From contig CACWLD010000011.1 in NCBI GenBank assembly GCA_902761655.1, positions 35,600-72,944 of the forward strand: a DNA stretch of 37,345 bases. Reading direction: 5' to 3'. Each line of letters starts with the position of its first letter. Within the stretch, counting starts at the first letter, position 1. The notes under the pieces were generated by a model that was given only the letters and a program-made list of their open reading frames with translations, did no database searches and had not been told where the DNA came from. The translations under genes were made by a program, and so were the position numbers. Origin of the DNA: an uncultured Bacteroidia bacterium (lineage in GTDB: Bacteria > Bacteroidota > Bacteroidia > Bacteroidales > UBA932). Below are positions 11,793 through 36,873 of this stretch, piece by piece.

Positions 11793-11800
11793 TATATTTG
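11793..11800 (+). promoter_or_regulatory. -7 box for the steroid-reductase operon
   Basis: TATATTTG lies 16 bp after the clpB stop and 24 bp before ATG 11825. No good -33 box is seen. Its position excludes a start codon at 11798 and supports 11825. Confidence 0.6.
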
Positions 11801-11824
11801 TTATTCAGTAGCAGATATAGGCCA

Positions 11825-12592
11825 ATGAGCATTGCAAACTTCTATACATTCCTGACAATCATGGCCATATGCGCCGTGATTGTCTTTTTTTGTCTCTACT
11901 TTGTAGATGCCGGCTACGGCAAGTTCTACAACAGCAAATGGGGCCCTTCCATAAACAACCGCCTTGGCTGGGTGCTGATGGAAGCCCCTGTCTTTGTCGC
12001 AATGCTCATCCTGTGGCTGTGCTCCAACCGCAGGGGGGATGCCACGCGCCTGGTCTTCCTGCTGCTCTTTGAGCTGCATTACTTCCAGCGCTCCTTCATC
12101 TTCCCCCTGCTCATCCGCGGGGAAAGCCGTATGCCCGTATCCATAATCCTTATGGGCGTGCTCTTCAACACCCTCAACGCTTTTATGCAGGGCGGCTGGC
12201 TGTTCTACGTCTCCCCTGTCGATATGTACCCTCCGGAGTGGCTCCACAGTTTCCCGTTCTTCGCGGGAACCCTGCTGTTCTTTGCCGGAATGTTCATTAA
12301 CATACAGTCCGATTCCATAATCCGCAACCTGCGCCAGCCCGGAGACACGGCCCATTACCTGCCAACCGCCGGGATGTTCCGCTACGTAAGCTCCGCCAAC
12401 TACTTTGGCGAAGTGCTGGAATGGACCGGATTTGCCATACTCACCTGGTCCTGGGCGGGCGCGGTCTTCGCCCTCTGGACCTTCGCCAACCTGGGCCCCC
12501 GCGCCGCACGCATCCACAAGCGCTACCAGCAGGAGTTCCCCACCCAGTTCGATGCCAAGAAAGTTAAACGTATCATACCCCTCTTATACTGA
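11825..12592 (+). CDS. Steroid 5-alpha-reductase family protein (3-oxo-5-alpha-steroid 4-dehydrogenase)
   Basis: A 255-residue membrane protein with strong resemblance to animal SRD5A1/SRD5A2, which reduce the delta-4 double bond of 3-oxo-steroids with NADPH. The likely catalytic pair is kept: Glu53 in MEAPVF and Tyr86 in LHYFQR. Other family landmarks are INIQSDSIIRNLRQPGD, the FRYVSSANYFGEVLEW segment and the C-terminal IIPLLY. About six or seven hydrophobic helices are visible. The start at 11825 is preferred over a TTG at 11798, because a -7 box overlaps the latter. Its TGA overlaps the next ATG by one base. Substrate (bile acid, hormone or other enone) cannot be told from sequence; the gene context supports A-ring reduction of steroids. 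Confidence 0.88.
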   Translation: MSIANFYTFLTIMAICAVIVFFCLYFVDAGYGKFYNSKWGPSINNRLGWVLMEAPVFVAMLILWLCSNRRGDATRLVFLLLFELHYFQRSFIFPLLIRGESRMPVSIILMGVLFNTLNAFMQGGWLFYVSPVDMYPPEWLHSFPFFAGTLLFFAGMFINIQSDSIIRNLRQPGDTAHYLPTAGMFRYVSSANYFGEVLEWTGFAILTWSWAGAVFALWTFANLGPRAARIHKRYQQEFPTQFDAKKVKRIIPLLY

Positions 12593-13824
12593 TGCCTGAA
12601 TCAAAGATATTCACCGAAGCCCACATAGGGCCCGTCACCCTCAAGAACCGCGTCATCCGTTCCGCGGCGTTCGAGAATATGGCCTACGGCAACCGTCCTT
12701 CCAAAGACCTGTTCGACTATCATACGGCCTTGGCGCGCGGCGGAGTGGGAATGACCACCGTGGCCTATGCCGCCGTATGCCAGTCCGGACTGTCCTTTGA
12801 CGGCCAGCTGTGGATGCGCGAGGAGATTGTCCCGGAACTCAAGGAACTCACGGACGCCATCCACTCCTACGGCGCAAAGGCATCCATCCAGCTGGGGCAC
12901 TGCGGCAATATGACGCACAGGGCCACCTGCGGATGTATGCCCGTGGGCGCCTCCGGAGGCTTTAACCTGTACTCCCCCACCTTCGCGCGCTCCCTGCGCA
13001 AAGAGGAGATACTGCAGATAGTGGCGGACTTTGGCAATGCGGTGAACCTGGCGCGCAAGGCCGGCTTTGACTGCGTGGAAGTCCACGCCGGCCACGGCTA
13101 CCTGATCAGCCAGTTCCTGTCGCCATATACAAACAGGCGCAAGGACGAGTTCGGCGGCAGCCTGGAGAACCGGATGCGCTTTATGCGGATGGTGATCAAG
13201 GAAGTGATGAAGGCCGCCGGGGACGATATGGGCGTGGTGGTAAAGGTGAATATGCACGACGGCTTCCGCCGCGGAATGCAGACGGAGGAGTGCCTGGAGG
13301 TGGCAAAGGAGCTGGAGCGGCTGGGCGTCCACGCGCTGGTGCTCACCGCAGGTTTCGTGAGCAAGGCGCCAATGGAGGTAATGCGCGGTGCAATGCCGCT
13401 CAAGACCCTACGCCACTATATGGATTTCAAGAAGTTCTGGTGGCTCAAGGCGGGGCTGGCGCTGGCGGGACGCATCGTCATACCAACAGTGCCATTCAAG
13501 GAAGGATACTTCCTGGACGAGGCCAAATTGTTCCGCGCCAACCTGTCGCTGCCGCTCATCTATGTGGGAGGCCTCATCTCCAAGGAGAAGATGGAGGAGG
13601 TTCTGGACGCCGGCTTCGAAGGCCTGCAGATGGCCCGCGCCCTTGTCCACGACACGGACTTCGTGAACAAGCTCAAGAGCGGAGAAGTCACCTGCAGCGG
13701 GTGCAAGCACTCCAATTACTGCATAGGGCGTATGTATACGCTGGAAATGAAGTGCCATTGCAAGGTGGACAACCTTCCGCGCAGGCTTGAGAGGGAAATT
13801 GCAAAAGCAGAAAAGGAATTATGA
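12592..13824 (+). CDS. Old-Yellow-Enzyme-type NADH:flavin oxidoreductase (BaiCD/BaiH-like N-half)
   Basis: A 410-residue FMN TIM-barrel ene-reductase. Family motifs are QLGHCGN (100-106), the active-site pair in HAGHGYL (His165, His168), FLSPYTNRRKDEFGGS, and the FMN phosphate region YVGGLIS..MARALVHD. Near the C-terminus four cysteines (368, 371, 377, 388) resemble the 4Fe-4S ligands of 2,4-dienoyl-CoA reductase and BaiCD/BaiH, but the spacing is C-x2-C-x5-C-x10-C, not the usual C-x2-C-x3-C-x11-C. The C-terminal FAD/NAD(P) domain of those enzymes is missing, so the electron donor is unclear. Placed between a 5-alpha-reductase and two SDRs, it is a candidate delta-4 or delta-1 3-oxo-steroid (5-beta) reductase. 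Other enone substrates are possible. Confidence 0.88.
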   Translation: MPESKIFTEAHIGPVTLKNRVIRSAAFENMAYGNRPSKDLFDYHTALARGGVGMTTVAYAAVCQSGLSFDGQLWMREEIVPELKELTDAIHSYGAKASIQLGHCGNMTHRATCGCMPVGASGGFNLYSPTFARSLRKEEILQIVADFGNAVNLARKAGFDCVEVHAGHGYLISQFLSPYTNRRKDEFGGSLENRMRFMRMVIKEVMKAAGDDMGVVVKVNMHDGFRRGMQTEECLEVAKELERLGVHALVLTAGFVSKAPMEVMRGAMPLKTLRHYMDFKKFWWLKAGLALAGRIVIPTVPFKEGYFLDEAKLFRANLSLPLIYVGGLISKEKMEEVLDAGFEGLQMARALVHDTDFVNKLKSGEVTCSGCKHSNYCIGRMYTLEMKCHCKVDNLPRRLEREIAKAEKEL

Positions 13825-14588
13825 CGGCTCTGATTACCGGAGGAAGTTCCGGAATGGGACTGGAATACGCACGGCAGCTGGCCGCCAGGGGTTGCGAACT
13901 TGTCATTGTGAGCAACCGCCAGGAGGAGTTGCAAGCCGCGGCGGACAAGGTTCGCGCAGATTACGGCGTGAGCGTAGTGCCCTGTTTCCTGGACCTGAGC
14001 AATTGGGATGCAGCGGACCAGTTGTATGATTTCTGCACCCAAAAGGGCCTTTATGTGGACATCCTGGTGCTGAACGCCGGGTTCTTTTTCTTCAAGGAAC
14101 TGCAGGCGGAGGACTGCGGCCTGGCCAGCTCAATGATAGGGCTCCACGTGAACACCACCACCCGTATGTGCCTGCTGTTCGGCAACGATATGAAGAAGGC
14201 CGGCAAAGGCAACATAATAATAATGTCATCTATGGCCGCGGATATTCCGGCCCCGGGCATAACGATATATTCAGCCACAAAGTCCTACCTCAAGAGCTTC
14301 GGCAAATCCCTGTATTACGAGATGAAGCCCTACGGCGTATGCGTAACCACCGTCCTGCCCGCCGCCATAGCAACCCCTTTGTACCGGCTGAGCGATAAAT
14401 TGATGGACCTTGGGGTGAAGACAAGAGTTATCCGCACACCGCAGTCTCTGGTCCGCAGGGCGCTCAAGGGAATGGACAGGGGCCGCAAAAGGGTTAAACC
14501 CGGCCTTATGAACGTCCTTCTGCCGGGCCTGATAGCCATCCTGCCGGACGGCCTGATAAACGTACTCTGGAGAAAATGGAAGAGATAA
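13821..14588 (+). CDS. Short-chain dehydrogenase/reductase, candidate hydroxysteroid dehydrogenase
   Basis: A 255-residue classical SDR. The nucleotide site is TGGSSGMG (6-13) and the structural motif NAG is in LNAGFFF. The catalytic residues are Ser137, Tyr150 and Lys154 (MSSMAADIPAPGITIYSATK). The helix after Lys (SYLKSFGKSLYYEMKPYGV) and the C-terminal extension resemble the 17-beta-HSD type 3/12 branch, which act on 3-keto-acyl or steroid ketones. It begins inside the stop of the flavin reductase (ATGA, 4-bp overlap) and ends inside the next gene. In this operon a 3-beta- or 3-alpha-hydroxysteroid dehydrogenase is the simplest role, but that is inference from context. Confidence 0.85.
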   Translation: MTALITGGSSGMGLEYARQLAARGCELVIVSNRQEELQAAADKVRADYGVSVVPCFLDLSNWDAADQLYDFCTQKGLYVDILVLNAGFFFFKELQAEDCGLASSMIGLHVNTTTRMCLLFGNDMKKAGKGNIIIMSSMAADIPAPGITIYSATKSYLKSFGKSLYYEMKPYGVCVTTVLPAAIATPLYRLSDKLMDLGVKTRVIRTPQSLVRRALKGMDRGRKRVKPGLMNVLLPGLIAILPDGLINVLWRKWKR

Positions 14589-15391
14589 TCCCCGGCAGCA
14601 TAATAGTGACCGGAGCAAGCGGAAGTATGGGCAAGGCAGCCGTGGAAGCGCTGGCCCGTAAGGGCCGAAGCGTGACAATGGCCTGCCGCAACCTGGAGAA
14701 AGGAGAAGCCGCGCGCCGCGATGTCCTGGCCAAGGTGCCTGGCGCAGCCATCAGGCTGCTGCCCCTTGACCTTGGCTCGCTTCGCTCCGTGCGCGCTTTC
14801 GCTGCCGCAGTTGCTGGCAGCGCCCCTTCGGGGCTGCTGAACAACGCCGGCACAATGCCGCCCCGCTTCTCGCTCACTGAAGACGGTCTGGAGCAGACCG
14901 TTGCCGTGAACTACGCGGGGCCCTACCTGCTCACCCGCCTCCTGCTTGACAGCTTCGCCCCCAGCGCAAGCATAGTCAACGTCGTCTCCCTCACCGTCAG
15001 ATACGCCCGCATAGACCGCGGCCTGTTGGAGAAAGGCCCTGAGGATTTCCACCAGCTGCGCACCTACGCCACCTCCAAACTGGCCCTGATGCTGTTCAGC
15101 ATAGAACTGGCAAGACGCACTTCCCTGCGCGTGAATATGTCCGACCCTGGAATAGTGAATTCCAATATGATAGACCTCGGCCGCTGGTTCGACCCCCTGG
15201 CTGACGCCCTGTTCAAGCCGCTCTGCAAGCGGCCGGAACAAGGCATCGCCCCCGCAATTTCCGCCCTGGAGAGCCCCCAGACAATGAAACTGTTCAAAAG
15301 GGACAAGTGCCTGGACATCCCCGCGCGCTTCCTGGACAATCCTTTGGCGGGGTATTTGTGGGAAGAGACCGCCCGTAGGACAGGTTTATAA
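14576..15391 (+). CDS. Short-chain dehydrogenase/reductase, retinol-dehydrogenase-like
   Basis: A 271-residue SDR overlapping the previous gene by 13 bp. It has TGASGSMG (12-19), LLNNAGTM, Ser138 and the active-site YATSK (Tyr164, Lys168). The Ser-Tyr spacing of 26 residues and the context FHQLRTYATSKLALMLFSIELARR resemble retinol dehydrogenases and WWOX, which also handle steroid alcohols. It is the last gene of the four-gene run; a new -7 box follows before the S41 peptidase. Two SDRs in one operon suggest two oxidation or reduction steps at different positions or of opposite stereochemistry. The substrate is not visible in the sequence. Confidence 0.84.
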   Translation: MEEIIPGSIIVTGASGSMGKAAVEALARKGRSVTMACRNLEKGEAARRDVLAKVPGAAIRLLPLDLGSLRSVRAFAAAVAGSAPSGLLNNAGTMPPRFSLTEDGLEQTVAVNYAGPYLLTRLLLDSFAPSASIVNVVSLTVRYARIDRGLLEKGPEDFHQLRTYATSKLALMLFSIELARRTSLRVNMSDPGIVNSNMIDLGRWFDPLADALFKPLCKRPEQGIAPAISALESPQTMKLFKRDKCLDIPARFLDNPLAGYLWEETARRTGL

Positions 15392-15399
15392 TTATTTAC

Positions 15400-15407
15400 T
15401 ATCTTTG
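15400..15407 (+). promoter_or_regulatory. -7 box for the S41 peptidase gene
   Basis: TATCTTTG (TAnnTTTG) lies 22 bp before the ATG at 15430. No clear -33 box is seen. Confidence 0.55.
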
Positions 15408-15429: not shown

Positions 15430-17088
15430 ATGAAAAGATTCTTCTATATCATTCTTGCAATGGCATTGGCCTTCTCCTCTTGTGAGAAGCAGCCCGTAAA
15501 CCAGGATCCCGGCAACGGCAACAATACTACTCCAAGTGGTCCCACCACACCTCAGGAGCCGGAGAAAAACTGGACATACTATTATGTCAACAACTTCGCC
15601 TACGACCTAATGGACACATACTATCTCTGGAAGAAAGAGATCAAGGCCCAGATGATGGCCTGGACTGACCAGGAAGAACCCATAAGCAAGGTTAAATCTA
15701 TCCGCTATAAAGACAACTCAGGTAACGACATAGACAAATGGACCCAGGTGACGGACGATTATAAGTCGTTTATGGGGGACGTGACCGGTGTCACCACCAC
15801 CTATGGCTACGATTTCTATGATTTCGCACAGGACAAAGAGAACACCAACAGGGTTCTTGCCACCGTACGTTATGTCTATCCCAACAGTCCTGCTTCAGAG
15901 GCCGGCCTCAAGCGCGGAGATGTCATTGTCAAAGTCAACGGAAAGGATATTCCTATCATTTGGCAGGGAACCTCAGGCTCCCTTGACGTAGATTTCATCT
16001 ATGACCAGATGGTGTACAGCAGCAATTGCACCCTGACACTCAAGGACGGCAGCAAAGTCTCTATGACCGCAAGGGAAATGGTTGAGAATCCTGTCATTAT
16101 GTACAGGATACTGGACAATGGAGAGAAAAAGATAGGTTATCTCCATTACACCTCCTTCACCGCAGAATCCTGCGCTCCACTCATAGAGGCCTGCCAGTAT
16201 TTCAAGTCAGAGGGCATCAAGGAACTGGTCCTTGACCTCAGGTACAACGGAGGCGGTGCCGTGGTTGCAGAAGAGGTACTCATCTCAATGCTTGCACCAA
16301 GGGCCAATGTAGAGGCTGGAGAAATCTTTGAGAAAGAAATCTACAATGCGGACTATGGCAAATACCTGGCCGAGGAGGCCGAGAAACAAGGATTGGAAGC
16401 CGGTGTTTCAAGGCTCTCCTTCCAGCACGACTTCAGGTTCGACGGCAAGGACTACCATTTCAATACTGAAGATGCAAACATCGGCCTGGAGAAGATTTAC
16501 TGTATTGTAACCGGAGACAGCGCTTCCGCCTCAGAAGCCCTCATCTGCTGCCTCAAGCCCTTTATGCCTGTTGTATTGGTAGGAAGACAGACCTACGGCA
16601 AATACTGCGGAGGCTATATCATTGGTTCAGACGATTACTTCCAGGACATCATTGATTATTATACGAAGTATCCCAGCAATGACAGTGCAGAAGCCATTGA
16701 ATTTGGAAATAACGGCCTCAAGTATGCCAAGAACTGGGGTCTTTACGTAATGTTCTCCCGCTATGCGGACAAGGACGGCGTCACCCTTTGTATGCCTGAT
16801 GGAATCAAGCCTGACTATTCCGCAATGGACAACCCTCAGGACGGCTTCCAGCTTGGCGACCCCAACGAGACAATGCTCAAGAGCGTTCTCAAGCGCGCAG
16901 GATTCACCGTTGCCGAGTCTTCAGGTACTCAGCAGCAGGCTCCGGCAAGGTATGATACCGGTGTAGAGATCAAGTTCCAGCGTCGTGAAAAACCTGGTAT
17001 GGTAAGGGAACTTACTTCACTTCCAGGACATCGCCGTGATCCGCAGATACCACTGCTTTCCAATGATCGGTATACCCGGGCTGAGTAA
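15430..17088 (+). CDS. S41-family (C-terminal-processing-type) peptidase lipoprotein
   Basis: A 552-residue lipoprotein with lipobox FSSC (Cys18) and a Gly/Asn/Pro/Thr-rich linker to about residue 45. A PDZ-like region follows around 145-190 (NSPASEAGLKRGDVIVKVNGKDI). The S41 catalytic domain comes next. The probable nucleophile is Ser364 in TGDSASASEAL and the general base Lys391 in GRQTYGKYCGG, in the Ser/Lys arrangement of Tsp/CtpA. It is likely anchored in the outer membrane or periplasm and may degrade or trim secreted proteins. The last 26 codons run antisense into the C69 peptidase gene (77-bp tail-to-tail overlap). The stretch after QRREKPGMVRE looks unlike a family tail, so the native stop may have been lost. 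Confidence 0.88.
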   Translation: MKRFFYIILAMALAFSSCEKQPVNQDPGNGNNTTPSGPTTPQEPEKNWTYYYVNNFAYDLMDTYYLWKKEIKAQMMAWTDQEEPISKVKSIRYKDNSGNDIDKWTQVTDDYKSFMGDVTGVTTTYGYDFYDFAQDKENTNRVLATVRYVYPNSPASEAGLKRGDVIVKVNGKDIPIIWQGTSGSLDVDFIYDQMVYSSNCTLTLKDGSKVSMTAREMVENPVIMYRILDNGEKKIGYLHYTSFTAESCAPLIEACQYFKSEGIKELVLDLRYNGGGAVVAEEVLISMLAPRANVEAGEIFEKEIYNADYGKYLAEEAEKQGLEAGVSRLSFQHDFRFDGKDYHFNTEDANIGLEKIYCIVTGDSASASEALICCLKPFMPVVLVGRQTYGKYCGGYIIGSDDYFQDIIDYYTKYPSNDSAEAIEFGNNGLKYAKNWGLYVMFSRYADKDGVTLCMPDGIKPDYSAMDNPQDGFQLGDPNETMLKSVLKRAGFTVAESSGTQQQAPARYDTGVEIKFQRREKPGMVRELTSLPGHRRDPQIPLLSNDRYTRAE

Positions 17089-20916: not shown

Positions 20917-21711
20917 TTACAGCTTGTAATAACTGCCCAGTATCTTTGAGAACAAAGGTGCTGGGAGTATTTTTTTAAGCAGGACGGACAGGCGCTGCAC
21001 CAGAGTGGAAACCACATAGTTGTACCTGGGGTTCTTCTTGGCCACAATATTTACAATTTTGGCGGCCAGATAATCCGGTTTGAGGCCGGTGGTCTCGTCT
21101 TTCTCAATGCTGGCAAGGGATTCCGCGTAGGTCTTGTACACTTCATACGCCTCCGGATCCGCCACGCTCTTGCGCTGCGCCGTAAACGCGGTGGCAAAGT
21201 CCCCCGGCTCAATTACCGTAACCTTTATTCCCAGAGCCTTGGTTTCCAGGCGAAGGGCTTCGCAATATCCCTCTATGGCGAACTTGCTTGCGGAATACAT
21301 CCCCTGGAAAGGCAGGCCCATAAGGCCTCCGATGGAACTGAAGGCAATGATCTTGCCTCCTCCCTGCTTGCGCATTACCGGAAGGACATAGTGTACGCAG
21401 CGCACCAGGCCCATAAAATTCACGTCCATCTGGCGCTGGGCATCCTGGACCGAAGTGTACTCCAGCGGTCCGCCTATACCCATTCCGGCGTTGTTGATGA
21501 AAACGTCAATGCGGCCCTGGGCCTCGACAACCTGATCCACGGCAGCCTTCACCTGAGCCTCATCCTGGACGTCAGCCTTTATGTAGGTGACACCGGGGAT
21601 GAATTCCTTGGCGTTGCGGTGGGTACCATAAACGGTATGGCCCGCTGCACAGAGCTGTCGGGCCATAGCTTCTCCAAATCCGGAGGTGATTCCGGTAATG
21701 AGGATTATCAT
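20917..21711 (-). CDS. Short-chain dehydrogenase, candidate 3-ketosphinganine reductase
   Basis: A 264-residue classical SDR with TGITSGFG (6-13), NNAGMG and the catalytic FSSIGG..MYSASK set. The gene starts 4 bp after the stop of serine palmitoyltransferase, so both are made from one transcript. Serine palmitoyltransferase yields 3-ketosphinganine, and the next step in sphingolipid synthesis is NADPH-dependent reduction of that ketone, a reaction done by SDRs in eukaryotes (KDSR) and proposed for bacteria. The assignment rests on operon context and fold, not on a specific motif. A general ketone or aldehyde reductase is the alternative. Confidence 0.85.
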   Translation of the reverse strand: MIILITGITSGFGEAMARQLCAAGHTVYGTHRNAKEFIPGVTYIKADVQDEAQVKAAVDQVVEAQGRIDVFINNAGMGIGGPLEYTSVQDAQRQMDVNFMGLVRCVHYVLPVMRKQGGGKIIAFSSIGGLMGLPFQGMYSASKFAIEGYCEALRLETKALGIKVTVIEPGDFATAFTAQRKSVADPEAYEVYKTYAESLASIEKDETTGLKPDYLAAKIVNIVAKKNPRYNYVVSTLVQRLSVLLKKILPAPLFSKILGSYYKL

Positions 21712-21715
21712 ATTG

Positions 21716-22906
21716 TTACTTTATTACTCCTACTTGTCTGAATACCTTTTCAAGCCTGTCAACTGCAATGTCCACCTGCTCCTTGGTATGGGTTGCCATA
21801 AGGGCGAAACGGATGAGCACGGAATCCTGAGGTACCGCAGGGGCGATCACCGGAGTGATGAATACGCCTTCGTCAAGGGCGAGCTTCACAATCTGGAGAG
21901 CCTTGGTGGTATCCCTTACAAACAGGGGGATGATAGGAGACTGAGTGTGTCCGGTATCGAATCCGCGGGCCTTGAACTGCTCCTGGGCGTAATGGGTGAC
22001 GTCCCAGAGGTTATCTATGCGCTCAGGTTCGGTGAGCATTATGTCAATTGCCTTGCTTACGGCGGCTACGTTTGCCGGAGGCATACTTGCACTGAAGATA
22101 AGCGCGCGGGCGTTATGCTTCAGGTAGTTCATAATGTTATGGTTGGCGGCGATGAATCCTCCCAAAGAGCCGAATGACTTGGAGAACGTTCCCATAATGA
22201 TGTCAACCTTGTCCGTGAGGCCAAAGTGGTTCGCGGTTCCGCGGCCGTGGTCTCCAAGGACACCAAGTGAATGGGCGTCGTCCACCATAATATAAGCATC
22301 GTACTTCTCGCACAGCTGGACAATCTCAGGCAGAGGAGCTATGTCTCCCTCCATAGAATAAACGCCGTCAACTACAATGAGCTTTGGAGCGTTTCTTGGG
22401 CAGACGCGGAGTTTCTTCTCCAGTCCGCGCATATCGTTGTGGGGGAATTTGAGTACCTTGGAGAATCCCAGGCGGCTTCCGTCAATGATGGAAGCGTGGT
22501 CCAGGGAGTCCAAAAGCACGAATCCGTCCCTGAATGCAAGGGCAGAGATGGCTCCAAGATTGGACTGCATTCCGGTACTGAAGGTTACGGCCTCTTCCTT
22601 GCCTACAAGCTTTGCAAGCTTCTCTTCAAGTTCAAGGTGGATGTCCAGGGTTCCGTTAAGGAAACGGGATCCTGAGCAACTTGTTCCGTATTTCTGTATG
22701 GCTGCTATGGCTGCCTCCTTGAGGCGCGGGTCGTCTGAGAGTCCCAGGTAAGAATTGGATCCGAACATAAGCACATCCCTTCCCTGCATCTTGACAACGG
22801 GATCCTGTCCGGACTCGATGGGACGATAGTATGGATAAATGCCCTGGGCTTTGACTTCATCTGCGCGGGTATATTTTGCGCAAACGTCATCGATGATTTT
22901 TTTCAT
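21716..22906 (-). CDS. spt: Serine palmitoyltransferase (alpha-oxoamine synthase)
   Basis: A 396-residue PLP enzyme that would condense serine with an acyl-CoA to give 3-ketosphinganine, the entry to bacterial sphingolipids. Family features are SNSYLGLSDDPR, the GTSCSGSRFLNGT loop, VDGVYSMEGDIAPLP, DDAHSLGVLGDHGRG and the PLP lysine Lys243 in GTFSKSFGSLGG. The close relatives Kbl, BioF and HemA share the fold. The N-terminal extension KYTRADEVKAQGIYPYYRPIESGQDPVV and Bacteroidales origin favour Spt. An SDR follows 4 bp downstream. A -7 box lies at 22949-22956. Sphingolipids are normal membrane lipids in Bacteroidales and act on the host immune system. Confidence 0.88.
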   Translation of the reverse strand: MKKIIDDVCAKYTRADEVKAQGIYPYYRPIESGQDPVVKMQGRDVLMFGSNSYLGLSDDPRLKEAAIAAIQKYGTSCSGSRFLNGTLDIHLELEEKLAKLVGKEEAVTFSTGMQSNLGAISALAFRDGFVLLDSLDHASIIDGSRLGFSKVLKFPHNDMRGLEKKLRVCPRNAPKLIVVDGVYSMEGDIAPLPEIVQLCEKYDAYIMVDDAHSLGVLGDHGRGTANHFGLTDKVDIIMGTFSKSFGSLGGFIAANHNIMNYLKHNARALIFSASMPPANVAAVSKAIDIMLTEPERIDNLWDVTHYAQEQFKARGFDTGHTQSPIIPLFVRDTTKALQIVKLALDEGVFITPVIAPAVPQDSVLIRFALMATHTKEQVDIAVDRLEKVFRQVGVIK

Positions 22907-31521: not shown

Positions 31522-31613
31522 GGAGAGGTGGGTGAGTGGCTGAAACCACCGGTTTGCTAAACCGACGTACGCTTCACGGCGTACCACGAGTTCGAATCTC
31601 GTCCTCTCCGCCA
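31522..31613 (+). tRNA. tRNA-Ser (anticodon GCT)
   Basis: A class II tRNA with a long variable arm. The acceptor stem is GGAGAGG/CCTCTCC, the anticodon loop TTGCTAA has GCT, and the variable-arm hairpin is GTACGC-TTCAC-GGCGTAC. The T-arm is ACGAG-TTCGAAT-CTCGT and the discriminator is G at 31610. CCA is encoded (31611-31613). The sequence character changes just behind it, so it is the likely attachment gene of the island. Confidence 0.96.
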
Positions 31614-32947: not shown

Positions 32948-32950
32948 GTG

Positions 32951-34423
32951 ATGAACATAGACATCAACGATATCCAGGCCGATATCCAAACAGAATTGTC
33001 TGCGATGGCCGAAACCGGGAGTCTTGATGCTAAGGCTATCCTCGATGAAATGCTAACGATCATCGATCCCATAGACTTTTACGAGGAGGGGCATATCGAT
33101 CAGGGTAAATCCTTGTCGAAACAAGTCTATACAATCGTGGTCGTTGAAAAGATCCTGGAAATAGCCCGGGAGAAACACTGGGACCTCGCAACGGAGAATA
33201 CCCGAATCTTCATATACAACGGGAGTCAATGGATCATTGTCTCCGCGGATGGTTTCAAGCGGTTTCTCCAGAAAGCGGCCACACGGATGGGGGTTCCGGA
33301 CAGATATGCAAAGCATTTCCTGTTCCAGGACGATCTTCACCGTCAATTCCTCAGTGCCGCAGACTTACCGACCCCAGAGACTCAGTCGTCCCGGGTGCTT
33401 ATCAACCTTCAAAACGGCACCTTCGAGAACAATGCAACCGAGCACTGTCTTCGAGAGTTCAGAAAAGAGGATTTCCTGACCTATCAACTCCCGTTCTCTT
33501 ACGACCCGGAAGCCAAGTGTCCCATCTTCCACGCTTTCCTTAACAGAAACCTTCCGGACAAAGGCTGCCAGGACTTGATTGCCGAATACATTGCCTATGT
33601 CTTGTCCCCGTTCCTCAAACTAGAGAAGGTCCTGATCTTATATGGAGATGGCGCCAATGGGAAGAGTGTTTTGTTCCAAATCATCAAAGCACTCCTGGGA
33701 GAAGACAACGTATGCTCCTATTCCCTGCAGAACCTGACGGCAAGGGAAGGATATCAGCGGGCAGAGCTTGGGAACAAACTTCTCAACTACGCTCCGGAGA
33801 TCAATGGTCGGATAGATCCTGCTCTTTTCAAGCAGCTTGCGAGTGGTGAGCCGGTGGAAGCCCGGTTCATCTTCGGGCGCGCTTTCATCCTACGAAAATA
33901 CGCCCGTTTGCTCTTTAACTGCAACGTTCTGCCCAGCGACGTGGAGATGACCCACGCGTTTTTCCGCAGGTTCATGATCATCCCGTTCACGGAAACCATC
34001 CCGGAAGAGGAGCAAGATACTGATCTCGCCAAGAAAATCACCCAAAACGAGCTTCCTGGCATCTTTAACTGGGTCATTGAAGGGTTGGACCGCCTAACCC
34101 GTAATAAGCGCTTTACAGAGCCCGAAATGGTCCGTGAAGCGAACAAATCTTTCAGAGACCAGTCCGACAGTTTGGTGCTCTTCCTGGAGGACTCCGGAAT
34201 TGTCGCAGGAAGTGACCACAGCGTTCAAGTCAGTGCATTGTATGCACGATTCTCTGCCTATGCCAGGAGCTGTAATCTCCCCGCGATATCCATGAAGTCT
34301 TTCTCCGAGAAAATGTCAAAGGCGGGATTCGAGAAGATAAGAACCGCGCAAGGCCGTTTTTTCAACTATAGCCTGGTTTCTCTTTCAAATGAAAATATCG
34401 AAGAGACAAATGACGCAGTATAG
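32951..34423 (+). CDS. D5/P4-type primase-helicase (SF3 helicase)
   Basis: A 490-residue replication protein of phage/plasmid type. The N-terminal half (about 1-180) resembles the D5_N region. The SF3 helicase core follows, with Walker A GDGANGKS (232-239), the AEL..KLLNYAPEING Walker B region, sensor-like RLLFNCNVLP, and the arginine-finger segment FFRRFMIIPF. The C-terminus (IFNWVIEGLDRL, SFRDQSDSLVLFLED) matches the P4 alpha C-terminal domain. It lacks a Toprim catalytic centre; that is supplied by the next gene, so the two together probably make a split primase-helicase. GTG at 32948 directly after the DUF3853 stop, or ATG at 32951, can be the start; ATG is chosen. Confidence 0.9.
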   Translation: MNIDINDIQADIQTELSAMAETGSLDAKAILDEMLTIIDPIDFYEEGHIDQGKSLSKQVYTIVVVEKILEIAREKHWDLATENTRIFIYNGSQWIIVSADGFKRFLQKAATRMGVPDRYAKHFLFQDDLHRQFLSAADLPTPETQSSRVLINLQNGTFENNATEHCLREFRKEDFLTYQLPFSYDPEAKCPIFHAFLNRNLPDKGCQDLIAEYIAYVLSPFLKLEKVLILYGDGANGKSVLFQIIKALLGEDNVCSYSLQNLTAREGYQRAELGNKLLNYAPEINGRIDPALFKQLASGEPVEARFIFGRAFILRKYARLLFNCNVLPSDVEMTHAFFRRFMIIPFTETIPEEEQDTDLAKKITQNELPGIFNWVIEGLDRLTRNKRFTEPEMVREANKSFRDQSDSLVLFLEDSGIVAGSDHSVQVSALYARFSAYARSCNLPAISMKSFSEKMSKAGFEKIRTAQGRFFNYSLVSLSNENIEETNDAV

Positions 34424-35375
34424 ATACTTTTTGGAGCCCTGGGGCTGGCGAGATCACCGGGCAGGAGGGCGTGCGTCAAACAAGCATATTTGTCCCAACT
34501 GCGGGAAGAGGACATTTGTCCGGTATGTTGACGGAGAAACGGGGTCTTATCTGGGAGACCAGGTGGGGAAATGCGACCGGGAAGACAAATGCGGATATCA
34601 CTATAGCCCGGCCATGTATTTCCATGACCACCCTGATGAAACTCAGAAGTATATGGACTCGCCCAGGGCTGATAAACGGCCATATTCGCCATTACCGGCC
34701 ACGAACGAGATATCTACCATCGACTGGAAATACGTTGAGAGCAGCCGCCTTCAGACATCAAATTTCAAGGAATACCTGCTTGACCGTTTCAGCGATAGTC
34801 AGCTTCAAGTCCTCCAAGTCTGCGAGGACTACTTCCTTGGAGGAGACGGAGACGGTGGAACGATCTATTGGCAGGTTGACGAACTGGGTCGGCCCCGCTC
34901 CGGAAAGATTATCCAATATGACCATCAAACAGGTTGTAGGATCAAGGACACCACCCTTCCTGTTTCCTGGGTTCACAAGAAACTTATCAAAGCCGGCCAA
35001 CTCCCAAATAACTGGAAGCTCTCCCAATGTCTGTTCGGAGCACACCTGCTTCCGAAGAGAACGGACGCCCCGGTTTGTTTGGTCGAGTCTGAGAAAACAG
35101 CCTTGATCTGCTCCATCCGTTTACCAAGCTGTTTATGGATAGCTACCGGAGGCCTGAACAACTTTCGATTGGAACCCTGCCAGTGCCTTGCCGGAAGAAA
35201 TGTGATCATATACCCGGATTTGGGGGCATACGACAAGTGGTGTGTGCTGGCCGAAAAGTTCTCGGCCAAGATCGGATTCCGGTGTAAAGTGTCCCGCCTG
35301 TTGGAAGAAAAAGCGACGGAACAGGAACGTCAGAACGGGCTGGATCTCGCAGACTATCTTCTTCGCTCCGGATGA
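34389..35375 (+). CDS. Zinc-finger/Toprim primase-like protein (DUF6371-type)
   Basis: A 328-residue protein with an N-terminal zinc-binding region (ICPNCGKRTFVRYV..GKCDREDKCGYHYSP), as in CHC2-type primases. A C-terminal Toprim-like fold has the acidic residues Glu233 in VESEKTA and Asp277/Asp282 in YPDLGAYDKW. This is the DUF6371 layout common in Bacteroidales elements. It probably primes replication together with the overlapping SF3 helicase gene (35 bp overlap). ATG 34389 and ATG 34410 (MTQYRYFLEPWGW) are both possible; the second fits the family better. Structured repeat copy A begins 29 bp after its stop. Confidence 0.82.
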   Translation: MKISKRQMTQYRYFLEPWGWRDHRAGGRASNKHICPNCGKRTFVRYVDGETGSYLGDQVGKCDREDKCGYHYSPAMYFHDHPDETQKYMDSPRADKRPYSPLPATNEISTIDWKYVESSRLQTSNFKEYLLDRFSDSQLQVLQVCEDYFLGGDGDGGTIYWQVDELGRPRSGKIIQYDHQTGCRIKDTTLPVSWVHKKLIKAGQLPNNWKLSQCLFGAHLLPKRTDAPVCLVESEKTALICSIRLPSCLWIATGGLNNFRLEPCQCLAGRNVIIYPDLGAYDKWCVLAEKFSAKIGFRCKVSRLLEEKATEQERQNGLDLADYLLRSG

Positions 35376-35404
35376 AAAAACTGCCTTGACTCCTCTTCGT
35401 CTTT

Positions 35405-35517
35405 TGCCGCCTTCCAGCTTGCTTGACCCTGGCACATGGGTGGGTGACGCATATATATATGCATATTGAGTTACCCACCCCTGTTTTTAAGCGGCAGATT
35501 CCGTGCAAGCACGGGAA
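35405..35517 (+). repeat. Structured repeat, copy A (113 nt)
   Basis: First of three related copies. TGCC/GGCA (35405-35408/35431-35434) closes a loop holding AGCTTGCT. GGGTGGGTGAC pairs with GTTACCCACCC around a perfect GCATATATATATGC. The shared TATTGAGTTACC follows at offset ~60-71. The end is the hairpin CCGTG-CAAG-CACGG. Copies B and C keep the same landmarks at the same offsets. It starts 29 bp after the primase-like gene. The 84 bp up to copy B hold small hairpins (GTGCT/AGCAC and TGGCA/TGCCA) but no gene. Confidence 0.8.
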
Positions 35518-35601
35518 AGACGCGGATCAAATAATGCCGGGTCAAGCCTCCCGAAAAAGGACATCGACAACCTGTGCTGAAAGCACCTTCAAATGGCATC
35601 G

Positions 35602-35713
35602 GTGCCAAAGAAAGCTCGCTGGTTTTGTGGCACCCCTCACCTCGCCTGCGGGCAAGGTGGTATTAAGTTACCAGTTTCCTGTTTCAGTGTCCATGAACCG
35701 GGCAAGCCCGGTA
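35602..35713 (+). repeat. Structured repeat, copy B (112 nt)
   Basis: Second copy, same strand. GTGCCA/TGGCAC (35602-35607/35628-35633) encloses AGCTCGCTGG. CACCT/AGGTG with inner GCC/GGC is followed by TATTAAGTTACC. The terminal hairpin is ACCGGGC-AA-GCCCGGT. It ends about 75 bp before the YhcG start. The only other thing noted in 35714-35787 is an AT-rich stretch that must hold the YhcG promoter; no clear TAnnTTTG is seen. Confidence 0.8.
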
Positions 35714-35787
35714 TCTCGATTTTGTCATATCTGCCAAACTTAGGATGTAAAAAAGAATTAACTTTGTATGGATTATAATGTGTAGTT

Positions 35788-36873
35788 ATGGAACGATTGA
35801 TGACAACAGACAGGGAATACTCCCTGTGGATTGCAGAGCTGGCACAACGATATCGCTCCAGTCAGATCAAGGCCGCGATAAAGGTCAATGATGAGATGCT
35901 TCGCTTCTACTGGTCGGTAGGAGAGGATATCGAGCAACGGAAATTGGAGAACCGCTACGGCAGCCATTTCTATGAGAATGTCAGCAGGGACCTGAAGAAG
36001 GCCTTAGCCCTGAACCGTGGCCTGTCTCCAACAACTATAAAATACACCCACTACTTCTATCGTCTTTATTGTCAGTTACTTGGAAATCGTCAAGAGGTTA
36101 TTGACGATTCTTTGCCGACAAATCGTCAAGGGGTTATTGACGATTTCGACTGCATATTCAAAATCCCTTGGTCATTACACGTACTCATTATTGACAAGGT
36201 AAAGAATGACCCTCATAAGGCACTGTTCTTTGTCAAGAAGACGATAGAAAACAATTGGGGCCACAGCGTCTTGCTCAATTTCATAAGCACCGACCTCTAT
36301 GAACGCCAGGGAGCAGCGCAAACCAATTTCGCCCTTACCTTGCCGGCTCCGGAGAGCGACCTTGCCCAGGAATTATTGAAGAGCCCGTACGATTTCTCGT
36401 TCTTGCCCGGGAAAGAGAAGTACCAGGAGGCCGAGTTGAAGAGCGCCCTGACCAGTCACATCAAGGCCTTCCTGATTGAATTGGGCAAGGGCTTCAGCTT
36501 TGTCGGCAAGGAGTATCGCCTGGTCGCGGGAGGGAAAGAGAAGTTCATCGACCTGCTCTTTTACATTATCCCGCTACATCGATATTGCGTGATCGAGGTC
36601 AAGGTTACGGAGTTCGATTTCCCTGATCTGGGCCAGCTGGCCGGATATGTCGCCATGGTGGACGACCTTCTCAATACGGAGGTCGAGAAGCCCGCTATCG
36701 GCTTGCTGATTTGCAAAGAAAAGAATAACGTTCTGGCTCGATATGCATTGTCAACGATCAATCGCCCGATGGGAATCTCCGAATACGAGGTTGCCCGCCA
36801 GCAACTTCCGGACGATTTGAAAAACGCACTCCCTTCCCCTGAAGAAATCGAAAAGGGACTGATGGAAAATTAG
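35788..36873 (+). CDS. YhcG-family (DUF1016) PD-(D/E)XK nuclease
   Basis: A 361-residue protein with the DUF1016 N-terminal helical domain (IKAAIKVNDEMLRFYWSVGEDI..RYGSHFYENVSRDLKKAL) and a C-terminal PD-(D/E)XK nuclease fold. The active-site set is Asp255, Glu270 and Lys272 (FIDLLFY..CVIEVKV), followed by the Gln-containing helix GQLAGYVAMVD. Such proteins are common in defence islands and integron cassettes, and their target is uncertain. Residues 100-123 are two 12-residue tandem units (NRQEVIDDSLPT, NRQGVIDDFDCI) in the linker before IFKIPWSLHVLIIDK, encoded by two DNA hairpins. The gene is flanked on both sides by copies of the structured repeat. A start two ATGs apart (35788 or 35800) cannot be decided. 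Confidence 0.92.
   Translation: MERLMTTDREYSLWIAELAQRYRSSQIKAAIKVNDEMLRFYWSVGEDIEQRKLENRYGSHFYENVSRDLKKALALNRGLSPTTIKYTHYFYRLYCQLLGNRQEVIDDSLPTNRQGVIDDFDCIFKIPWSLHVLIIDKVKNDPHKALFFVKKTIENNWGHSVLLNFISTDLYERQGAAQTNFALTLPAPESDLAQELLKSPYDFSFLPGKEKYQEAELKSALTSHIKAFLIELGKGFSFVGKEYRLVAGGKEKFIDLLFYIIPLHRYCVIEVKVTEFDFPDLGQLAGYVAMVDDLLNTEVEKPAIGLLICKEKNNVLARYALSTINRPMGISEYEVARQQLPDDLKNALPSPEEIEKGLMEN
36084..36146 (+). repeat. Tandem hairpin repeat inside the YhcG gene
   Basis: AATCGTCAA..TTGACGATT (36085-36093/36101-36109, loop GAGGTTA) recurs 36 nt later with arms AAATCGTCAA..TTGACGATTT (36120-36129/36137-36146, loop GGGGTTA). The 36-nt unit equals 12 codons, so the frame is kept. Confidence 0.85.

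Follow-up and report, generated by a model that had tools for sequence, protein, structure and literature searches.

We found that a four-gene operon in DNA from an uncultured Bacteroidia bacterium very probably belongs to a cassette, conserved among Bacteroidales, that remodels steroid ring A by way of a 3-oxo-delta4 intermediate. Human gut bacteria are already known to carry this gene set, of which the operon is one version, and it is not novel in kind. The setting of this particular cassette is probably not bile, and for the foregut clade to which it belongs we favor dietary plant steroids (sapogenins and sterols) over bile acids as the inferred substrate. The initial annotation had proposed that the operon acts on the steroid A ring and is related to the isoallo-bile-acid cluster of Bacteroidota; both proposals are supported by synteny and by published reviews, although bile acids are doubtful as the substrate.

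Organization of the operon

The stretch of DNA that we analyzed (the window) is 37,345 nucleotides long, and the operon and its surroundings comprise the following features.

11793..11800, + strand: -7 box (TATATTTG) of Bacteroidota type, putative operon promoter (count of TAnnTTTG versus shuffles)
11825..12592, + strand: 5AR, an SRD5A-type 5-alpha-reductase (PF02544, Steroid_dh, E 2.7e-42; matches to 7c83 and 7bw1; E53/Y86)
12592..13824, + strand: OYE, a single-domain FMN flavoprotein of 410 aa (PF00724, Oxidored_FMN, E 3.4e-56; fold model; H165, H168, Y170)
13821..14588, + strand: SDR-A, a classical short-chain dehydrogenase of 255 aa (PF00106, adh_short, E 4.3e-38; S137, Y150, K154)
14576..15391, + strand: SDR-B, a retinol-dehydrogenase-like SDR of 271 aa (PF00106, adh_short, E 2.7e-20; S138, Y164, K168)
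15400..15407, + strand: next -7 box (TATCTTTG), before the S41 peptidase gene (TAnnTTTG match)
15430-17088: Peptidase_S41 open reading frame, downstream of the operon (profile match)

The -7 box is present as first annotated, and so are the four genes, whose overlaps measure 1, 4, and 13 bp. The motif TAnnTTTG, which we take to be the Bacteroidota -7 consensus, occurs 30 times in the window versus 15.1 expected, and 0 of 100 shuffles reached 30. We also looked for a -33 TTG exactly 20 bases from the 11793-11800 box, and it is absent at the operon promoter. The closest relative, L060, carries TATCTTTG at the place aligned with the window's -7 box. We placed the start of 5AR at the ATG at 11825; the longer frame reported by the ORF tool begins with a TTG at 11798, inside the -7 box. 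The second -7 box, at 15400..15407, likely marks the end of the operon. Against L060, dN/dS for the four genes is 0.076, 0.058, 0.135, and 0.124; these values show that the frames encode genuine proteins under purifying selection and, together with synteny, rule out chance or spurious open reading frames.

The 5AR retains the catalytic residues of SRD5A enzymes

The 5AR matches solved SRD5A structures over almost its full length, both PbSRD5A (7c83, E 5.3e-51) and human SRD5A2 (7bw1, E 8.6e-39), with a weaker match to an enoyl-CoA reductase (22of, E 5.6e-7). The catalytic Glu53/Tyr86 pair named by the initial annotation corresponds to E57 and Y91 in human SRD5A2, residues whose roles are treated in PMC7815742, and neither residue varies among the 121 aligned Bacteroidales rows, the window counted. 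In addition to this pair, seven of eight named NADPH-binding residues are retained. The QEY motif of SRD5A is incomplete in the window's enzyme, with M52 replacing the Q; according to PMC7815742, replacing Q56 in this motif abolished the activity of the human enzyme, which counts against the ring-A reading, although all 121 Bacteroidales rows share the M. Where SRD5A has the NADPH-binding H231, 101 of 106 gut and foregut 5AR rows carry I or L, and 12 of 15 solo distant rows carry H.

The OYE shares only the FMN domain of BaiCD

The second gene had been described as a BaiCD-like flavin ene-reductase, a description that holds for the N-terminal FMN domain and fails for the remainder: the protein has no C-terminal NAD(P)H domain like that of BaiCD and DCR, and the match to the BaiCD family (NF041087) reaches 195.7 bits, far under the 825-bit family cutoff. 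The FMN domain is common to the window's OYE and the BaiCD/OYE-family 3-oxo-delta4 steroid 5-beta-reductases of Clostridia, together with the residues H-x-x-H-x-Y, the OYE active-site motif. H165, H168, and Y170 are invariant across 45 rows, and the fold model (pLDDT 91) is an FMN barrel carrying this active-site His/His/Tyr set, with fold matches to OYE, 2-naphthoyl-CoA reductase, and DCR. Of the cluster motif the window's OYE keeps only three invariant cysteines, and its helical stretch 270-296 falls outside the sequence match to DCR. The missing NAD(P)H domain and the reduced set of cysteines count against the ring-A reading. We regard the OYE as a candidate 3-oxo-delta4 steroid 5-beta-reductase or 5-beta-3-oxo-steroid 4-dehydrogenase.

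SDR-B is probably the shared dehydrogenase and SDR-A the extra one

Two SDRs downstream of the OYE had been predicted, and both genes match adh_short, with their catalytic residues (S137, Y150, and K154 in SDR-A; S138, Y164, and K168 in SDR-B) at least 97% conserved in both row groups. The initial annotation took the second, retinol-dehydrogenase-like SDR to be the extra component, and our comparison reverses this assignment. Phocaeicola massiliensis has a cluster of three genes whose sole SDR sits inside the SDR-B clade with a support of 100, in a comparison in which P. massiliensis proteins stand in for those of P. dorei and P. merdae. SDR-B is thus orthologous to the only SDR of that cluster, which rules it out as an accessory gene, and SDR-A is therefore the extra one. 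SDR-B is likely a 3-beta-hydroxysteroid dehydrogenase (3-beta-HSDH) and SDR-A a candidate second hydroxysteroid dehydrogenase; counting against this, the best 25 NCBIfam models listed, out of 212 and 118 matches for the two proteins, include no hydroxysteroid dehydrogenase for either.

Kinship to the isoallo-bile-acid cluster and conservation of the cassette

In reviews, the Bacteroidota cluster tied to isoallo-lithocholate consists of a 5AR, a BaiCD/BaiH-like flavoenzyme, and a 3-beta-HSDH. Disruption of the 5AR in P. merdae prevented the formation of allo-LCA derivatives, and the cluster around that gene also contains a flavoenzyme of BaiCD/BaiH type and a predicted 3-beta-HSDH (PMC10382948); the "indirect pathway" appears in PMC9645264. 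The window resembles the isoallo-LCA clusters (5AR, 5BR, and 3-beta-HSDH) of Parabacteroides merdae, Odoribacter, and Phocaeicola dorei in having a 5AR beside a BaiCD/BaiH-like flavoenzyme and an SDR, with the SRD5A-type 5AR and the OYE-family flavoenzyme adjacent on the same strand. Compared with P. massiliensis, from the same genus as P. dorei, the 5AR is 60%, the OYE 65%, and SDR-B 38% identical, in the same order. The window differs from this cluster in having SDR-A between the OYE and SDR-B, in lacking a bile salt hydrolase match in its genome, and in belonging to a clade that is mainly from the foregut among the rows sampled.

Of 80 named loci, 79 have the OYE following 5AR in the same orientation (L113 lacks the OYE); the two genes are directly adjacent in all of these except L127, where 1.9 kb separates them. 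SDR-A is found in 69 and SDR-B in 46 of the 80. The genes stay together though their order varies, being 1-2-3-4 in 26 loci and 3-1-2-4 in 14. Among 25 further relatives with 45-66% identity, the OYE follows 5AR in 21, and 10 of those 21 have neither SDR nearby, which counts against the ring-A cassette reading.

The window's branch comes mostly from the ruminant foregut

In the 5AR tree, the foregut rows fall with the window in one clade (SH-aLRT 85) that holds all 38 foregut genomes sampled. A single branch likewise sets the foregut rows apart in the OYE tree (98) and in the SDR-B tree (87), while in the SDR-A tree they need two changes rather than one. Members of the 5AR clade also come from horses (L061, L102, L103, L122, and L125), buffalo cecum (L091), and roe deer duodenum (L089).

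We used bile salt hydrolase (CBAH) as a proxy for a bile-acid setting; it is not a defining feature of the enzymes themselves. The window's genome, which is 93.7% complete, has no CBAH match, and strong CBAH matches are found in none of the 18 family genomes whose 5AR is at least 68% identical, the window's included. A full-length CBAH is present in 0 of 38 foregut genomes versus 5 of 12 others, in a test of 50 genomes of unstated completeness that left out 30 named genomes and in which kinship among genomes inflates the contrasts. By this proxy, the window's cassette is outside a bile-acid setting. Bile acids are also reported as normally absent from the rumen. Because the window's 5AR lies in a clade whose 38 foregut genomes yielded no full-length CBAH and the rumen is reported to be normally bile-free, we conclude that its setting is probably not bile, and because this branch comes mostly from a bile-free ruminant foregut, plant steroids, not bile acids, may be what it acts on in nature.

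Proposed reactions and substrates

For the window's organism, we infer what each enzyme does, SDR-A included, in which direction the OYE runs, and which substrate is used. One SDR would interconvert the 3-hydroxyl and the 3-ketone, and the OYE would add or remove hydrogen at C4-C5 on the 5-beta side, acting as reductase or dehydrogenase according to supply. The membrane 5AR would reduce the delta4-3-ketone on the alpha face with NADPH. The other SDR would then fix the final 3-hydroxyl, with SDR-B most likely setting it to 3-beta.

Ruminal metabolism of diosgenin yields smilagenone, smilagenin, epismilagenin, and tigogenin. We propose dietary plant steroids because this product set equals the one predicted from the cassette's activities. 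In such a route, the 3-beta-hydroxyl would be oxidized to give the delta4-3-ketone, which the OYE would reduce on the 5-beta side to smilagenone and the 5AR on the 5-alpha side to tigogenone, and the two SDRs would carry out 3-alpha and 3-beta reduction to epismilagenin, smilagenin, or tigogenin. We advance only tentatively the specific claim that the foregut cassette performs the long-known ruminal A-ring metabolism of plant steroidal sapogenins. No gene assigned to rumen sapogenin reduction appears among the literature matches listed, which does not disprove that one exists. We also considered saponin deglycosylation in the same genome, which gained no clear support: the genome has no match to a GH78 rhamnosidase domain, and it has 11 GH3 matches.

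The cassette could instead act as in Parabacteroides and Odoribacteraceae, taking 3-oxo-LCA or comparable free secondary bile acids, released from their conjugates by other bacteria, to isoallo forms. We consider this a substantial possibility that nevertheless falls short of probable. The relatedness of the 5AR, the OYE, and SDR-B to the established isoallo cluster points toward it, as does the family outside the window's subclade, where strong CBAH occurs in 45 of 65 genomes with 5AR versus 7 of 116 without. The horse, buffalo cecum, and roe deer duodenum members come from sites with bile acids, and rumen communities fed bile acids made alloCA, 3-beta-CA, and isoHDCA, listed as new products, with an increase in isoLCA (PMC11193847). 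We also found no signature of a substrate switch in 5AR, since no position separates the foregut clade from gut rows at the thresholds used; positions that differ between foregut-clade and picked gut rows number seven in the OYE, four in SDR-A, and three in SDR-B. Against bile acids stand the CBAH counts in the window's relatives and the foregut genomes, contrasts that kinship inflates, and the normal absence of bile acids from the rumen.

Less probable is the inactivation of host or dietary steroid hormones (progestins, androgens) to 5-alpha/5-beta dihydro and tetrahydro forms. Concentrations of hormones in digesta are low compared with those of plant sterols or saponins, making them an unlikely selective substrate, and we saw no hormone-specific gene beside the operon. 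This reading does draw on the nearest solved relative, PbSRD5A, which was studied with in vitro steroid reduction assays (PMC7815742), and on BaiCD-related gut 5-beta-reductases that act on progesterone (PMC12238238). It is very unlikely that the enzymes reduce one of the bacterium's own isoprenoids or lipids, in the way that SRD5A3 and TECR act on polyprenols and enoyl-CoA, with no external steroid involved. The 5AR does match the enoyl-CoA reductase 22of, but the steroid 5-alpha-reductases are much closer, and its patchy presence, in 84 of 199 family genomes, is ill-suited to a core lipid pathway.

Should plant steroids be the substrate of the foregut branch, its genes would be candidates for the rumen conversion of diosgenin to lithogenic epismilagenin, a veterinary question that the papers surveyed treat without naming genes, and also for the alloCA, 3-beta-CA, and isoHDCA made by rumen communities supplied with bile acids. 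A liver conjugate of epismilagenin blocks bile canaliculi in hepatogenous photosensitization of sheep, and Bacteroidales with the cassette would, if the proposal is true, be a source of epismilagenin. The isoallo-bile-acid cassette would then be one branch of a broader steroid-remodeling cassette that acts on several substrates, bile acids among them.

Mobility and a neighboring exported protein

We dropped mobile spread of the cassette as an explanation: a search of phages returned no 5AR match, and the plasmid collection holds two 5AR records, one of them the P. massiliensis record, which we guess to be a chromosomal contig. A PCMD exported protein was also considered as a component of the system. 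Of 120 fetched loci, 29 carry it within the cassette or next to it (the match in L084 is partial); it is divergent in L130, L132, and L138 (Barnesiella and a near relative). The PCMD model has matches in 115 of 199 family genomes but none in that of the window, so we class the protein as accessory and not as part of this operon.

A conserved operon whose 5AR-OYE core recurs in related genomes

The initial annotation described four same-strand genes that follow a -7 box and overlap by 1, 4 and 13 bp, and this layout was borne out in the window. Domain searches assigned the genes to an SRD5A-type 5-alpha-reductase (5AR), an old-yellow-enzyme (OYE) family flavoprotein and two short-chain dehydrogenases (SDR-A and SDR-B).

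11825-12592, plus strand: 5AR
12592-13824, plus strand: OYE
13821-14588, plus strand: SDR-A
14576-15391, plus strand: SDR-B, retinol-dehydrogenase-like
15400-15407: second -7 box, ahead of the next gene, an S41 peptidase

Because this second box precedes the peptidase gene, SDR-B is most likely the last gene of the transcription unit; the upstream neighbor of the operon encodes a ClpB/ClpC-type AAA protein. Among the matches listed, the closest relative is L060, a locus titled Yak_Rumen, with cassette identities of 85, 93, 82 and 81% and dN/dS values of 0.076, 0.058, 0.135 and 0.124 (5AR, OYE, SDR-A and SDR-B, respectively). The window's own genome, G000 (2.0 Mb, 93.7% complete), contains a single PF02544 and a single PF00724 match, both within the operon. 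We conclude that the four-gene set is a real operon.

Of 199 genomes from the window's family, 84 had a 5AR match, as did 81 of 295 from the order, weak hits being counted for the latter. A scan of named genomes confirmed at least 581 relatives, of which the best 80 were retained and are therefore the loci nearest to the window. Among these 80, OYE lay downstream of 5AR and in the same orientation in 79 (L113 lacks it, and the gap in L127 is 1.9 kb), SDR-A was present in 69 and SDR-B in 46. With some loci clipped by contig ends, 26 had the gene order 1-2-3-4, 26 had 1-2-3, 14 had 3-1-2-4 and 14 had another. We picked 40 further loci from the family and order. Of the 25 that were 45-66% identical, 21 had OYE behind 5AR, and 10 of those 21 had neither SDR within the stretch. 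None of the 15 more distant loci had OYE in that position; in L175 an OYE-like match lies on the opposite strand at a distance of 5.5 kb. In 10 of these 15 distant Bacteroidales loci (L162-L176, about 40% identity, no adjoining OYE), the solo 5AR sits directly behind a 3-beta-HSD/epimerase-type gene.

Catalytic features of 5AR and OYE

The window's 5AR matched the structures of PbSRD5A (7c83, E = 5.3e-51) and human SRD5A2 (7bw1, E = 8.6e-39), and its proposed catalytic pair, E53 and Y86, indeed aligned to E57 and Y91 of the human enzyme. According to excerpts of PMC7815742, those residues contact the substrate 3-carbonyl, E57 being the proposed proton giver. Both were kept in all 121 aligned Bacteroidales 5AR rows. 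Unlike in SRD5A, the QEY motif reads MEY in all 121 (the window, at 11978-11983, residues 52-53, plus 120 homologs). At the position equivalent to H231, an NADPH-binding residue, 101 of the 106 gut or foregut rows have I or L, and 12 of the 15 solo distant rows have H.

The OYE had been called a BaiCD-like flavin ene-reductase, a description that holds for its FMN domain only, since BaiCD's NAD(P)H domain is missing. The protein consists of one FMN domain (mean pLDDT 91 in the AlphaFold model), and the model matches structures of OYE, 2-naphthoyl-CoA reductase and 2,4-dienoyl-CoA reductase; lacking the NAD(P)H domain, it would need an external electron donor. H165, H168 and Y170 were invariant in 45 aligned rows, and three C-terminal cysteines were retained in 97, 97 and 96 of 97 rows. 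At the position of the window's C368, where the alignment shifts, a cysteine was aligned in 29 of 97.

SDR-B as the candidate 3-beta-HSDH

According to reviews, Parabacteroides merdae, Odoribacter laneus and Bacteroides dorei convert 3-oxo-delta4-LCA to isoalloLCA, and allo-LCA derivatives no longer form when the P. merdae 5AR gene is disrupted; this gene clusters with those for a BaiCD/BaiH-like flavin oxidoreductase and a predicted 3-beta-HSDH (PMC10382948, section 12; excerpts of PMC9645264, PMC10672800 and PMC12697870). A tblastn search of a plasmid collection found, in Phocaeicola massiliensis (OY726067.1), of the same genus as P. dorei (formerly B. dorei), a 5AR 60% and an OYE 65% identical to the window's, plus just one SDR. 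This SDR sits within the SDR-B clade (support 100) and is 62% identical to the SDR-B of locus L159, 38% to the window's SDR-B and 26% to its SDR-A. Because it groups with SDR-B, and with P. massiliensis as a stand-in for the tested species, SDR-B is the likely 3-beta-HSDH and SDR-A the added gene, which reverses the earlier view of the retinol-dehydrogenase-like SDR as the extra component. The Ser/Tyr/Lys triad was at least 97% conserved in both row groups, for SDR-A and SDR-B alike, and SDR-A might serve the other 3-hydroxyl face or an oxidizing entry step.

Bile acids or plant steroids

We used bile salt hydrolase (CBAH) matches as a proxy for a bile setting. Strong matches (E < 1e-40) occurred in 45 of 83 family genomes with 5AR (two of the 83 being partial; G036, which has the one weak 5AR hit, left out) versus 7 of 116 without. 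Among the 83, none of the 18 genomes with a 5AR of 68% or higher identity to the window's, the window's own genome among them, had a strong match, versus 45 of the remaining 65. These contrasts are inflated because the genomes are related. We also examined 50 of the 80 named genomes, picked by habitat in the record title and with completeness not told, counting full-length matches (E < 1e-30) and excluding weak partial ones (E 1e-8 to 1e-17). Full-length CBAH was found in none of 38 foregut genomes (24 titled rumen, reticulum, omasum or abomasum, and 14 labelled RUG, which we take to mean rumen uncultured genomes). It was found in 5 of 12 non-foregut genomes: L118, from roe deer colon; the two Barnesiella L130 and L132, presumed to come from chicken; L136, titled 'Lapin' and taken as rabbit; and L123, Heminiphilus faecis, presumably a mouse isolate. 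The seven negatives comprised five horse genomes (four titled Horse_feces and L103, Ca. Cacconaster scatequi, assigned by species name), one buffalo cecum and one roe deer duodenum.

In the 121-row 5AR tree, all 38 foregut rows share with the window a 69-row clade (SH-aLRT 85) from which all 15 CBAH-positive rows are absent; the parent clade of 73 rows (support 95) brings in the CBAH-positive L118. Foregut rows also form one side of a branch in the OYE (98) and SDR-B (87) FastTree trees, but require two changes in that of SDR-A. The rumen reportedly contains no bile acids under normal conditions. The setting of the window's clade is thus probably not bile.

As to what such a setting might offer, smilagenone and smilagenin are 5-beta, tigogenin is 5-alpha and epismilagenin is 3-alpha, a set whose formation requires both 5-beta- and 5-alpha-reductase activity as well as 3-alpha/3-beta dehydrogenases. 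The activities predicted for the cassette would fit this ruminal sapogenin set. Hydrolysis of saponins in sheep yields sapogenins, a portion of which is oxidized and reduced to these four compounds (excerpts of PMC10385484), and rumen diosgenin is saturated and epimerized to epismilagenin, the conjugate of which acts as a lithogenic compound in the liver (excerpts of PMC5535167). We propose, as a testable idea, that plant steroids, rather than bile acids, may be what the foregut branch acts on. Against this, some clade members inhabit bile-exposed gut, the 5AR carries no clade-specific residue at the thresholds used, a GH78 match is absent from G000, and the window's own habitat is deduced from its nearest relatives. 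Rumen communities given bile acids yielded alloCA, 3-beta-CA and isoHDCA as new products and more isoLCA (PMC11193847, section 20), the kind of product that the cassette's predicted chemistry would be expected to give; in the text of that study, 'reductase' appears three times, each time as baiN in the excerpts covered, and 'isoallo' is absent.

Other genes in the window and at related loci

Outside the operon, a further SDR gene adjoins a class I/II aminotransferase gene (20917-22906, minus strand). Genes with D5_N/DUF5906 primase-like, DUF6371/zinc-ribbon and YhcG/DUF1016 nuclease domains (32948-36873), after a tRNA-Ser (31522-31613), are probably an integrated mobile element. The founding PCMD structure, BT2081, was interpreted as carbohydrate-related, with a conserved deep pocket (excerpts of PMC2954218). 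A gene for an exported PCMD-domain (PF13201) protein lies in or directly beside the 5AR cassette at 29 of 120 fetched loci (among them L063, L069, L071, L072, L075, L079, L080, L117, L121 and L135), a linkage that hints that some PCMD proteins may handle steroids.
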